In this document: in pieces, positions 3,591-33,001 of the stretch
Layout: the number at the start of each line of letters is the position of its first letter
Position numbering within the stretch: the stretch's first letter is position 1
NCBI GenBank assembly: GCA_035759705.1
Contig: DASTUJ010000108.1
Location: forward strand, 1-34,264
Direction of reading: 5' to 3'
DNA from: Actinomycetota bacterium
Lineage (GTDB): Bacteria; Actinomycetota; CADDZG01; JAHWKV01
DNA: 34,264 bases
Made by a program: the position numbers and the translations under genes
Notes under the pieces: model-generated
Seen by the model: only the letters and a program-made list of their open reading frames with translations
Database searches by the model: none
Told to the model about the DNA's origin: nothing

Positions 3591-6684
<3,094 letters not shown>

Positions 6685-28028: not shown

Positions 28029-30230
28029 CTAGCAGGGTTTGCAGGCACCGGTCACAACCCGGCGGATCTCCTGGTGCAGAATTTCGTAAATAAGGTCGTT
28101 CTTCCAATACTCCACATGGGCAGCGAACAAGGTAGTGGCTTTCGGATCCTTGATGTTGCACACCTTCTTCGCCTCATCTCTCGGATTCAGGGGCTTGTCG
28201 TCGATCAAATCGACGTCGTACAGGTTCAACGAGCCGCTGATAATGTCCCAGGGCGAGTAGACGTTCATCCACCGTTCAGGCCGGCAGTCGTAGCTTTGGA
28301 TCAGCGGTTGACCCGCCGATGCCAGCGCCTCCCGAGGTCCTCGCTCCCGGCAGTCGTACTGGACTGCAAACAAGAACGCCGTTTTGTCCAAAGGCGACCC
28401 GAAAGTGAGGAGCAGGGGCGTACGTTGCGCCACGCCCAGACCGGATAGCTCGGCAAAATCCGAACCCTTCTCTGCGGCCTGGTCTGACCTGATCAGTTCG
28501 TTCAAAACGTCATAGGCGATGACCGATCCAAGAGAATGACCAACCACAAAGACCTTGTCGTAATAGGGTCGGCCATCTTCGTCCTGGAGCGAGTAGACAT
28601 TGCGGGCCGCCTTGGTCAGCTTTTTTTTGATCTCCTCCCGAAGCTCGTTGAACTCGTCAAGCTTGTAGGGCGAGATGTAGATAGCCACATCACCGACGTA
28701 CTGAATCAGCACGCGGCGGACTGCGGCGCTGGCCCCCACCAACAAGAACCAAAAGAAGGCGTCCGGCGTCGAGTTGACGAAGTCCTGCAAAAGGTTGCCT
28801 TCGCCGGGCAAAAACGCCTTGCGGAGCGACGCACCGGCGGCAATTTCCAGCAGGATTTTCACCGTGAGCCCCACCGCCGCCAGGGCCAGGACGATGAGCC
28901 CGGCCAACAGAACGGATGAGGTCGACCTCCCTTCGATGCGTTCCTGCACGGAAGTTGGCCCCGGCCGGCCCTTGAAGTCCCGCTTAACGAGGCCGACCAG
29001 CATGACGAGGCGCGAGCCGACCCAGAACACGGCCACGGCGGCAACCAGCAGCAGGACGATCCCCTGCATGATCTCGTCGAAATTGCGAATCAGATCGCGG
29101 TCCAGCCAGCGCCGGTTAACAAAACCCTCCGGAGTCAGCTTCACGTGCCCGTAGATCATCGTGAACATGGCCACACTTCCCAACGTCGCCACGAAATAGA
29201 AAACGACAAACAGCGCCACGCTCAAAGAGCCCGTCACTTTGCCGGGAAACTTCTTTGCGATGAAAAGGAAGGCCACGACCAGGAAGGCTGCGGCTAACAC
29301 GAAATTGAACGTAGTGGTCAGGTCGGTCTTGAGCGCGCTACTCAGCCAATCATCCGGCTTCCCCAAGAACGTTGAAGCCGCCGATACGAGCACGATCACG
29401 GTGTTCATTGCGATGAGGGCACCGAGTCCCACCACGGCCACCAAGAGGTACAGAACCATCCGGCCGAGCGGACTGAATCGCTGGTAGCTCCCGAACATCC
29501 ACCTGACGAAACTTTTGCGCCCGTTCTTTAGACCGTTCCTTGCAGCGCCGAACAGAAACGCCACCACCTGTCGCACGGAGATTCTGCCTTCGGTGAGCGG
29601 AGCCCAATAGCCCTCGTAAACGTGGCAATCCACTTTCTGGTTCCCGCTCAGCAGGGTGAATTCAACTCGACGCAGCCAATCCTCATCCTCGAACTCGACC
29701 GACCGAACCGACAGGTCACAGTCTTGGCTCCCGTCCTCCTCCCGCAACTTGCGGGTTAGGACATCCATCGTGGAGAAGGGGACCTGCTGGCCCATCCCAT
29801 GTGCCGCGAAAACCGCAATGCGACTCACCCGGGCTGCGTTGTCGTCCTTCTTTCGGACGGTGGGAACGTCGGGTGGCTGCAGCTCAGGGTTGCGTGATCG
29901 CCAGAAGAGGAGGCGGCGAAGCGGACACTCGACCGAGGGTGCCGGAACAGGCTCACACTCGCACTGTTCCTCTGGCTTCTGGAGAGCCGCAATCGCAGCC
30001 AGCACGTGATGCCTCCAACTGTGCTTGGTCTTCTCCATAGGTAGCCGAACGGGCTCCTCGCAGTTCCGGCATTGCGTCTCTGGCAGTTTTTTCATCGCCT
30101 GCCGATTCTTCGGCTCACCCATTGGATAAGCAATGCCGAAAGTACCCAGTTTCTCCCTTAAACGGCCCCATTTTGCCGTAGCCGTTCGATTCCAAATGGA
30201 ACTGTTGCCGGACATAATGGGTGCCGACAT
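28029..30230 (-). CDS. Polytopic membrane alpha/beta-hydrolase, uncharacterised
   Basis: A 733-residue protein whose hydrolase parts are split by membrane helices. Order: an N-terminal Cys-containing stretch (CRNC at 54-57, then CEC near 90 and Cys102), a strand with the oxyanion-type HGMGQQ (144-149), a conserved-looking VYEGYWAPLTEGRIS (204-218), about six transmembrane helices (258-285, 306-326, 334-360, 388-412, 438-466, 490-508), then GHSLG with nucleophile Ser566, Asp662 (SPWDIISG) and His705 (AAHVEYW) as a full catalytic triad. The active site is probably cytosolic, near the membrane, which suggests a lipid or lipid-linked substrate, but none can be named. The gene looks less GC-rich than its neighbours, with an 8-T run at 28621-28628, which may mean transfer. 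ATG 30230 is likely; starts at residues 6 or 37 are possible. Confidence 0.8.
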   Translation of the reverse strand: MSAPIMSGNSSIWNRTATAKWGRLREKLGTFGIAYPMGEPKNRQAMKKLPETQCRNCEEPVRLPMEKTKHSWRHHVLAAIAALQKPEEQCECEPVPAPSVECPLRRLLFWRSRNPELQPPDVPTVRKKDDNAARVSRIAVFAAHGMGQQVPFSTMDVLTRKLREEDGSQDCDLSVRSVEFEDEDWLRRVEFTLLSGNQKVDCHVYEGYWAPLTEGRISVRQVVAFLFGAARNGLKNGRKSFVRWMFGSYQRFSPLGRMVLYLLVAVVGLGALIAMNTVIVLVSAASTFLGKPDDWLSSALKTDLTTTFNFVLAAAFLVVAFLFIAKKFPGKVTGSLSVALFVVFYFVATLGSVAMFTMIYGHVKLTPEGFVNRRWLDRDLIRNFDEIMQGIVLLLVAAVAVFWVGSRLVMLVGLVKRDFKGRPGPTSVQERIEGRSTSSVLLAGLIVLALAAVGLTVKILLEIAAGASLRKAFLPGEGNLLQDFVNSTPDAFFWFLLVGASAAVRRVLIQYVGDVAIYISPYKLDEFNELREEIKKKLTKAARNVYSLQDEDGRPYYDKVFVVGHSLGSVIAYDVLNELIRSDQAAEKGSDFAELSGLGVAQRTPLLLTFGSPLDKTAFLFAVQYDCRERGPREALASAGQPLIQSYDCRPERWMNVYSPWDIISGSLNLYDVDLIDDKPLNPRDEAKKVCNIKDPKATTLFAAHVEYWKNDLIYEILHQEIRRVVTGACKPC

Positions 30231-30286: not shown

Positions 30287-33001
30287 TTGCTGGAAGGTCT
30301 CGCCCGGTTCAGCTACCGGCACAAAGTGCTCATGCTGTTCATCTGGATCGTGGTCCTCGTGGGGATTGGAGGCCTCAACCAGGCCTTCGGCGCCAAGCTC
30401 AACAACAACTTCAACCTGCCGGGCACGGAGACCCAACGAGCATTCGACATTCTCGAGGAAAAGATGCCGGGCCGAAGCGGGGACACCGGCCAGATCGTTT
30501 TTCGGGCCGAGAACGGCATCGCCGCGGTACGTGAGCGCATGGAAGCCGGATTCGAAGCTGCCGAGGAGGCCTCGGGCGAGGATCTGGCCGCCCTGATCAG
30601 CCCCTACTCACAGGAGGGCGCCCGCCAGGTGGCGCCGGCAGGGCCGTCGGCAGGAAAGATCGCCTACGCCGAACTGCAGTTCAACAAGAACTTCGCCGAG
30701 CTGCCGCTCGAGCTGTCCGACGAGATCATCGAGGCGGTCGACGAAGCGGTCGACCCGGACAGCCAGTTAACCGTCGAGTACGGCGGCCCCCCGTTCCAGG
30801 AACTGGCGCCGCCGCTCGGCAAAAACGAGCTGTACGGCCTCGGCTTCGCCGTCCTCATCCTTCTCGTCTCGTTCGGTTCGCTGCTCGCCATGGGGCTGCC
30901 GATCCTCACCGCGCTGTTCGGAGTCGGCATCGGCGTGACCGGCCTGACCCTGCTGGCCAACGTGATGGACGTGGTGACCTTCGCCCCGCTGGTCGCCTCG
31001 ATGATCGGCCTGGGCGTGGGGATCGACTACGCCCTGTTCATCGTCACGCGCTACCGGAATGGGCTGAAGGAGGGTCTGAGCGTCGAAGACGCGGTGGTCA
31101 AAGCCATGACCACCGCCGGCCGGGCGGTTGTTTTCGCCGCCATCACTGTGATCATCAGCCTGCTGGGAATGTTCATCATGGAGCTGTCCTTCGTCTATGG
31201 TCTGGCGGTGGGCGCCGGCATAGCCGTACTGGTCACGATGCTCGCGTCGATCACCCTCCTGCCGGCACTTATGGCGATGGTGGGACGCCGGATCGACAGC
31301 CTCTCCATCCATTTCAAGCGCAAGGGTAAGCCGGCCAAGCCGAAGGAGTCGGCCTTCTGGTACCGGTGGAGCAGGGGCATCCAGAGACACCCGATCATCT
31401 CGGCGATCCTGTGCCTGGCGGTGCTCGGTGTTCTCGCCGCTCCCACCCTGTCGATCCGGCTGGGGAACCAGGACGCCGGCAACGGCCCCACCGAGCTGAC
31501 CACCCGCCGGGCCTACGATCTGCTGTCGGATGCCTTCGGCCCCGGCTCCAACGGCCCGCTCCTGGTGGCCGCCAGCTTCGACGACTCGCAGGCTGCGCTT
31601 CCCAGGCTGACCGCGCTCGCCACCCAGCTGGCCGCCGACCCGGGGGTCGCCAGCGTCAGCCCGGTCATCCCCAACGAAACGGCCAACCCCCAGGACGCCG
31701 ACGCTGCGATCATCCAGGTGATCGGCAAGTACGCCCCCCAGGACGAGAGGACCGACGAGCTCGTCCACCACCTGCGGGACGACATCATCTCCAAGGCGGA
31801 CGGGGACGGCCTGGAGATCCACGCCGGCGGGCCGGCTGCAATCGGCGTCGACCTGACCGACAAGCTCACCGAGCGGCTCCCCTACTTCTTCGGTGGGGTG
31901 ATCCTGCTGAGTTTCCTGCTGCTGATGATGGCCTTCCGGTCGATCCTCGTGCCCTTGAAGGCCGCCCTCATGAACCTGATCGCCATAGCGGCGGCGTTCG
32001 GGGTTCTGGTCGCAATCTTCCAATGGGGCTGGTGGCCGGCCGAGCTGATCGGAGTCGACCGCACGGGGCCCATCGCAGCCTTCACCCCGATGCTGCTCTT
32101 CGCGATCCTGTTCGGCCTGTCCATGGACTACGAGGTCTTCCTGCTCTCCCGGATCAAGGAGGAGCACGACAGCGGCAAGCCGAACGACCAGGCGGTGGCC
32201 GACGGGCTCGCCTCCACCGCCCGGGTCATCACGGCGGCTGCTGCGATCATGGTCACCGTGTTCTTCTCGTTCGTCCTGGGCGAGGACCCCAACGCCAAGC
32301 TGGTCGGCCTGGGCCTGGCGGCGGCGGTGCTGATCGACGCAACCCTCGTCCGCATGATCCTGGTGCCGGCGACCATGGAGCTGCTCGGCGAGGCCAACTG
32401 GTACCTGCCCCGGTGGCTGGACAAGATCCTGCCGAAATTCAGCATCGAAGGAGAGGAAGACGTTCCCGGACTGGCGACCCAGCAGATCGTCGACGAGGAG
32501 TCCGAGCTCGTTGCCGCCGCCCCCGAGCGGCAGTACCGCACCGTCGAGCCCCGTCCCGAGCAGCCGATGCCGAGGCACCACGCCTACCCGGCGCCGCCTC
32601 CACCGCCTGCGGCAGCGCCGGCTCGGGACGGCAGGCCGCTCCGCAAGGCACCGAGGTACGGTCCCACCGCCCTGGACCGGGTGCTGCGGGACCTGCCGTT
32701 CAAGGCCGGGGTGGGCGACGTGAGGTCGAACCTGGAGGAGGTGGCGCGGGCCACCTACAACCACTTCCGGTCCGGCGAGATCGGCCCCTCGGTCGACGTC
32801 TCCCGGGTCAGCGGGTACCTGGCGCTGGAGCAGCGCCTGGGGCGGATCGGCAGCATCACCAACCCCGAGCACGCCGCCCAGCTGCTAATCGGCGCGGTCG
32901 CCGCCAAAGCGTTGACCGCCAACGGCGACCAGTCCGGCGGCGACGACTACGCCCGGGCGGCGGTGAAGATCGTGCTGGAAGGCATCGGCAAGCGGGACTG
33001 A
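30287..33001 (+). CDS. MMPL/RND exporter with TetR_C-like cytosolic tail
   Basis: 904 residues. The RND part (1-715) has two repeats, each with a first helix, an extracytoplasmic loop and a five-helix bundle. The proton-relay Asp-Tyr pairs are Asp247-Tyr248 (GLGVGIDYALF) and Asp614-Tyr615 (GLSMDYEVFLL). MMPL proteins export lipids or hydrophobic compounds using the proton gradient. After a Pro/Ala-rich linker (about 745-790) comes a helical domain (about 793-904) that resembles the C-terminal ligand-binding and dimerisation half of TetR regulators: RSNLEEVARATYNHF, YLALEQRLGRIGSITNPEHA, AQLLIGAVAAKAL, DDYARAAVKIVLEGI. There is no helix-turn-helix. The start is TTG 30287 with GGAGG 6 nt upstream. 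The substrate is unknown. The transporter assignment is sure; the tail assignment is my own pattern reading. Confidence 0.92.
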   Translation: MLEGLARFSYRHKVLMLFIWIVVLVGIGGLNQAFGAKLNNNFNLPGTETQRAFDILEEKMPGRSGDTGQIVFRAENGIAAVRERMEAGFEAAEEASGEDLAALISPYSQEGARQVAPAGPSAGKIAYAELQFNKNFAELPLELSDEIIEAVDEAVDPDSQLTVEYGGPPFQELAPPLGKNELYGLGFAVLILLVSFGSLLAMGLPILTALFGVGIGVTGLTLLANVMDVVTFAPLVASMIGLGVGIDYALFIVTRYRNGLKEGLSVEDAVVKAMTTAGRAVVFAAITVIISLLGMFIMELSFVYGLAVGAGIAVLVTMLASITLLPALMAMVGRRIDSLSIHFKRKGKPAKPKESAFWYRWSRGIQRHPIISAILCLAVLGVLAAPTLSIRLGNQDAGNGPTELTTRRAYDLLSDAFGPGSNGPLLVAASFDDSQAALPRLTALATQLAADPGVASVSPVIPNETANPQDADAAIIQVIGKYAPQDERTDELVHHLRDDIISKADGDGLEIHAGGPAAIGVDLTDKLTERLPYFFGGVILLSFLLLMMAFRSILVPLKAALMNLIAIAAAFGVLVAIFQWGWWPAELIGVDRTGPIAAFTPMLLFAILFGLSMDYEVFLLSRIKEEHDSGKPNDQAVADGLASTARVITAAAAIMVTVFFSFVLGEDPNAKLVGLGLAAAVLIDATLVRMILVPATMELLGEANWYLPRWLDKILPKFSIEGEEDVPGLATQQIVDEESELVAAAPERQYRTVEPRPEQPMPRHHAYPAPPPPPAAAPARDGRPLRKAPRYGPTALDRVLRDLPFKAGVGDVRSNLEEVARATYNHFRSGEIGPSVDVSRVSGYLALEQRLGRIGSITNPEHAAQLLIGAVAAKALTANGDQSGGDDYARAAVKIVLEGIGKRD

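Follow-up and report, generated by a model that had tools for sequence, protein, structure and literature searches.

The window (the whole analysed stretch of DNA, 34,264 nucleotides) contains an exporter gene with a TTG start that encodes a protein of 904 aa; the orthologues from two other genomes of the genus (L040 and L042) have a start codon at the equivalent place. The protein belongs to the MMPL family, as Pfam PF03176 matches it above the gathering cut-off in 2 stretches, i.e., two repeats (E 1.8e-88, 297 bits). The following parts can be distinguished:

30287..33001, forward strand: MMPL/RND exporter gene with a tail derived from a TetR C-terminal domain (CTD), 904 aa
30287..32443, forward strand: MMPL core with RND fold, residues 1-719 (homologue comparison)
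32444..32665, forward strand: low-complexity Pro/Ala/Glu linker after the last RND helix, residues 720-793
32666..32998, forward strand: tail domain derived from a TetR CTD, residues 794-904 (profiles and AlphaFold)
32669..32704, forward strand: helix equivalent to the end of TetR alpha4, residues 795-806 (AlphaFold and alignment)
32720..32770, forward strand: shortened helix equivalent to TetR alpha5, residues 812-828 (AlphaFold and alignment)
32798..32836, forward strand: helix equivalent to TetR alpha7, residues 838-850 (signature D..xGYLxLEQRxGRI)
32864..32917, forward strand: helix equivalent to TetR alpha8, a dimerisation helix, residues 860-877 (AlphaFold and alignment)
32939..32980, forward strand: helix equivalent to TetR alpha9, a dimerisation helix, residues 885-898 (AlphaFold and alignment)

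Proline makes up 22% of the linker (residues ~720-793). Within the tail, a conserved LPFKAGxG loop directly follows the alpha4-end helix, while EEVARATYNHF, LEQRLGRIGSITNPEHAAQLLIGAV and DDYARAAVKIVLEGI map to alpha5, alpha7-alpha8 and alpha9, respectively. The window further encodes, on the reverse strand at 28029-30230, a protein of 733 aa in which several segments are hydrophobic and which has a GHSLG hydrolase motif. Its gene separates a SufU-like gene from the MMPL gene; in genomes G004 (L040) and G005 (L042), the orthologous loci have these two genes directly side by side.

Outside the genus, the closest MMPL homologues (734-743 aa, 48-50% identical over the core) have no tail and end 11-28 residues past the core. 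Other MMPL C-terminal extensions were considered as the same domain and rejected, as none of those examined outside the genus was matched in the profile search. Among them, two different kinds were observed: (i) an extension similar to a carboxypeptidase-regulatory-like beta domain (VHGYVRTADGEPVDGAAVTLL...) in L148:1138-3597 and L149:763-3900, which is odd because this end should be cytosolic; and (ii) a short (~80 aa), helical-looking extension in L145-L147, for which the profile search showed no relation to the TetR tail. The survey of MMPL proteins for the tail that the earlier note had suggested recovered orthologues within the genus, and the MMPL homologues examined outside it were negative.

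Neither alone nor as an alignment does the tail have a significant match in Pfam, NCBIfam or, by sequence, the PDB. The comparison with Pfam TetR_C models, proposed earlier as a check, gave no match for any of the 15 exporter tails listed below and, in the absence of a curated family, routine annotation would miss the domain. Its homology is visible solely through genus-wide profiles. Outside the genus, a profile built from the 15 exporter tails alone (A2), run against ~397 Actinomycetota genomes, matched solely TetR-type ORFs that carry the standard HTH (best E 8e-22); in ten of these, Pfam recognised TetR_N in all ten and TetR_C_7 (AefR-like), at varying strength, in nine. HHalign aligned the tails with TetR CTDs at 99.5% (E 2.9e-22, 120 columns) and, reciprocally, the tails were retrieved by a TetR-CTD profile with E between 4.5e-19 and 3.5e-9. 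In this reverse search, which used TetRs only and covered every ORF of the genus loci, the matches were the 15 tails and two in-genus TetRs (themselves members of the profile), and nothing further. Tails and TetR relatives share the end of alpha4, alpha5, alpha7, alpha8 and alpha9, together with the motifs NLxEVA and YLxxEQxxGR. By Pfam, TetR_N (the N-terminal HTH) is absent from the tailed exporter proteins, and the other translated TetR_N proteins of the window's own genome (G000) do not match the tail profile.

AlphaFold, given nine sequences, predicts five helices for the tail of the window protein (pLDDT 83, pTM 0.76), and the fold modelled for an MFS-2 tail agrees with it. Fold prediction and structure search, also proposed earlier, pointed to the TetR family alone, to which all 50 of the Foldseek matches listed belong (probability up to 1.00, TM about 0.6); their E-values are weak (0.1 or worse) and, in consequence, the fold comparison backs the sequence result but does not carry it. 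Residues ~794-904 are almost certainly a separate domain, homologous to the TetR CTD and fused through a flexible linker to the C-terminus of the exporter. Reciprocal profiles, HHalign and AlphaFold hence uphold the earlier note, which had recognised TetR C-terminal helices in residues about 793-904.

The capture, which had been described for this MMPL exporter, is present there but is not peculiar to the MMPL gene. Actually, one genus of uncultivated Actinomycetota has 15 tailed proteins of five exporter types in the four genomes analysed, and the carriers come from MMPL/RND, MFS and ABC, three exporter families that are unrelated to one another. Besides the window gene, these are listed below together with the closest TetR relatives:

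L007:3670-5226: DrrA-like ABC ATPase with tail, G000 (profile search of the window's own genome)
L008:2724-4727: MFS-1 exporter with tail, G000 (same search)
L009:4148-6592: MFS-2 exporter with tail, G000 (same search)
L040, L042: MMPL with tail, other genomes of the genus
L036, L044: ABC with tail, other genomes of the genus
L035, L039: MFS-1 with tail, other genomes of the genus
L037, L041, L043: MFS-2 with tail, other genomes of the genus
L038, L045: MFS-3 with tail, a further exporter type
L009:6475-7206; L041:6695-7321; L093-L100: TetR downstream of MFS-2, closest TetR relatives

In the search of G000, a weak match was also obtained to the C-terminal half of a true TetR (TetR_N 1e-14), which is encoded directly after MFS-2. 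Each of the other three genomes also carries tailed exporters, and within the genus the HTH-less form of the domain occurs on exporters only. No tailed exporter was found in ~390 other Actinomycetota genomes sampled, in a phylum survey (~400 genomes) that scored at most ten candidates per genome, so that rare independent captures may exist elsewhere. When ~85,000 species genomes were scanned for the pattern, eight loci appeared, all of them in three of these genus members. An 852-aa frame of G150 (L097/L123) was rejected as a further fusion, since MFS is matched in frames other than this one and the contig contains a run of N. As for neighbouring genes, those of the MFS-1-tail proteins are followed by a different TetR (L008:2119-2727, L035:5307-5918, L039:6165-6773), whose alpha8-alpha9 region in L008 matches the tail profile weakly (E 0.075); and, in each of the two genomes with MFS-3, the tailed MFS-3 gene (L038, L045) has a convergent Ser/Thr kinase-like gene as its neighbour.

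The earlier note had further proposed that the exporter captured the sensing half of a TetR regulator. A TetR CTD was indeed captured, but it is not intact: the end of alpha5 and alpha6 are lost, while alpha8 and alpha9 are kept. Compared with the TetR relatives, ~24 residues are missing from all tails at that place (HHalign, alignment), which leaves five helices without alpha6 in place of the complete alpha4-alpha9 set. At the former alpha6 site, the loop is longer in the tails of MFS-2 and MFS-3; in the MFS-2 model alpha6 is not rebuilt, and the loop is predicted to be disordered (pLDDT <50). The hydrophobicity pattern of the TetR relatives is kept in alpha8 (r 0.79) and alpha9 (r 0.95), the latter being the least conserved tail helix (entropy 1.81). 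P25, G64, L68 and R71 (tail numbering; add 779 for protein numbering) are invariant in the tails and variable in TetRs, and position 26, polar in TetRs, is hydrophobic in the tails; these tail-only features imply a putative new constraint shared by all of them. In TetRs, alpha5-alpha7 form the ligand cavity, alpha8/alpha9 form the dimer interface, and alpha4/alpha6 contact the HTH domain (PMC13176608). The loss of alpha6 thus follows in part from that of the HTH, and it leaves the pocket open as well.

The tail is clearly constrained by purifying selection, while the linker evolves fast. Between orthologues, dN/dS is 0.14-0.24 for the tail (0.30 in the single MFS-3 pair), 0.08-0.26 for the core and about 0.3-0.57 for the linker in most pairs, values which are rough because synonymous sites are near saturation. 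For the MMPL orthologues in particular, it is 0.14-0.21 in the tail and about 0.4-0.6 in the linker.

With regard to origin, the tails form one group in the tree (support 100/100), with each exporter type as a subgroup; since the tail tree is unrooted, a single capture is its simplest reading, not proof. At eight outgroup loci (L119-L125 and L127), which belong to other families than that of the genus, a tailless MFS-2 orthologue (56-69% identity) is directly followed by the homologous TetR. In G000 and G004, the homologous TetR still lies directly after the tailed MFS-2; in G003 and G005, it is gone from that place and the MFS-2 tail remains. The likely donor is therefore the TetR gene directly downstream of MFS-2, and we infer that MFS-2 was the first recipient. 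The 3' part of that TetR gene would have been copied onto MFS-2, and the tail would then have spread to four more exporters by duplication or recombination. One capture from the MFS-2 operon followed by spread is the simplest history, although the route of spread is proposed rather than read from the tree, in which the MFS-2 tails are not basal. At the start of the MFS-2/TetR operon (L009, L041, L043, L119-L121, L124 and L125) lies a palindrome, TGAGTGAGCGCTCACTCA, which is perfect or nearly so and is likely a TetR operator; in L009 its distance upstream of position 4148 is about 74 bp. It is kept in G005 as TGAGTGAGCACTCACTCA though the TetR gene is gone. A common operator of the neighbouring TetR for all tailed exporters was rejected, as the palindrome occurs in G000 at MFS-2 only and not at MMPL, ABC or MFS-1.

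Overall, the best explanation is a captured TetR CTD, donated by the MFS-2 operon, that serves as a tethered association module (probability roughly 0.55). Taken on its own, it is about an even bet that the tail is an association or docking module rather than a classical drug sensor with an enclosed pocket; association is favoured because damage affects the enclosed pocket but not the dimer helices. MMPL, 14-TM MFS and ABC ATPase proteins have a known topology that would place the tail in the cytosol. There, its alpha8/alpha9 face would pair tails, as homodimers or as heterodimers between different exporters, or, alternatively, would dock a common partner; such association would assemble, stabilise or localise the pumps. 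The cytosolic C-terminus of MmpL3, which supports oligomerisation and polar localisation (PMC6656915), may be taken as a functional precedent, not as a homologue.

A substrate sensor, in which the tail would bind the exported compound in the cytosol, like its TetR ancestor, and gate or feed the pump, with a specificity that differs between exporters, is possible but doubtful. The closest TetR relatives adjoin MFS exporters, like drug-responsive regulators, the HTH-less domain is confined to exporters in the genus, tails are conserved within an exporter type and differ between types, and the long linker would permit capture and hand-over. Besides, even a truncated TetR CTD could offer ligands an open groove to bind in. 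Nevertheless, no tail retains the alpha5-end/alpha6 part of the cavity, whose place is disordered in the MFS-2 model, and the strongest invariants are common to all exporter types, which is odd for sensors of different drugs.

An improbable alternative is that the tail acts as a tether or decoy, heterodimerising with the related TetR, holding it at the membrane and thereby linking the abundance or activity of the pump to transcription. The homologous TetR beside the MFS-2-tail gene (G000, G004) and the perfect palindrome upstream of the MFS-2 operon agree with this, but G003 and G005 (the latter 97% complete) have tailed exporters without that TetR, and in G000 the palindrome is confined to the MFS-2 locus, being absent from the MMPL, ABC and MFS-1 genes. 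It is very improbable that the tail is an evolutionary passenger, that is, an accidentally fused TetR fragment carried without function: its truncation and the long variable linker would suit this reading, which is largely contradicted by purifying selection (dN/dS 0.14-0.30, synonymous sites being partly saturated), the new invariant residues and the presence on five exporter types in four species. Finally, an assembly artefact or a chance helical similarity, conceivable in that the relatives are metagenome-assembled genomes, has a negligible probability given the same fusions with conserved gene order in four assemblies, the reciprocal profile E-values and the negative scores of the other MMPL C-termini examined.

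Returning to the tethered association module, a bolder and rather unlikely extension is that the tails on MMPL, ABC and MFS exporters would heterodimerise in the cytosol into one regulated multi-pump assembly, or that one cytosolic signal would gate all of them post-translationally. If true, the ligand/dimerisation domain of a repressor would have become a mobile "exporter tag" uniting pumps with different energy sources.

To our knowledge, TetR CTDs occur only within DNA-binding regulators, except for a few co-opted folds such as COQ9, and we know of no TetR fold in MmpL3-type cytosolic C-terminal domains. COQ9 does not bind DNA and binds lipid. Four comparisons can be drawn: (i) human COQ9 (PDB 6dew) likewise has a TetR-like fold outside a transcription factor, but it is mitochondrial, is not fused to a transporter and matches the tail weakly in Foldseek; (ii) TetR regulators with a TetR_C_7 (AefR-like) CTD, notably the TetR downstream of MFS-2, have a homologous CTD, whereas the tail lacks the HTH and alpha5-end/alpha6, has invariants of its own (P25/G64/L68/R71) and is part of a pump; (iii) in AcrR/AcrAB and TtgR/TtgABC, the classical TetR-regulated exporter operons, a TetR CTD is also functionally coupled to an exporter, in the arrangement seen at the outgroup MFS-2, but regulator and pump are separate there, while here part of the regulator lies inside the pump; and (iv) MmpL3-type domains are, likewise, cytosolic C-terminal appendages of an MMPL protein (PMC6656915), but the tail described here is a helical bundle derived from TetR, and non-MMPL pumps carry it as well. 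In the open-access full-text literature searched, no fusion of a TetR CTD to a transporter was described, in agreement with the earlier note, which had known of no such case.

The exporter with a TetR-CTD tail is a real and new architecture, and the tail resembles a module that exporters could reuse for regulation or assembly. Part of a regulator has moved into a pump and is now found on pumps of three unrelated superfamilies. The system is compact and testable: its domains are soluble and ~110 residues long, and orthologues that naturally lack the tail can serve as controls, as can the related TetR. In general terms, the finding suggests that multidrug-type exporters can share a common module for post-translational control or assembly.
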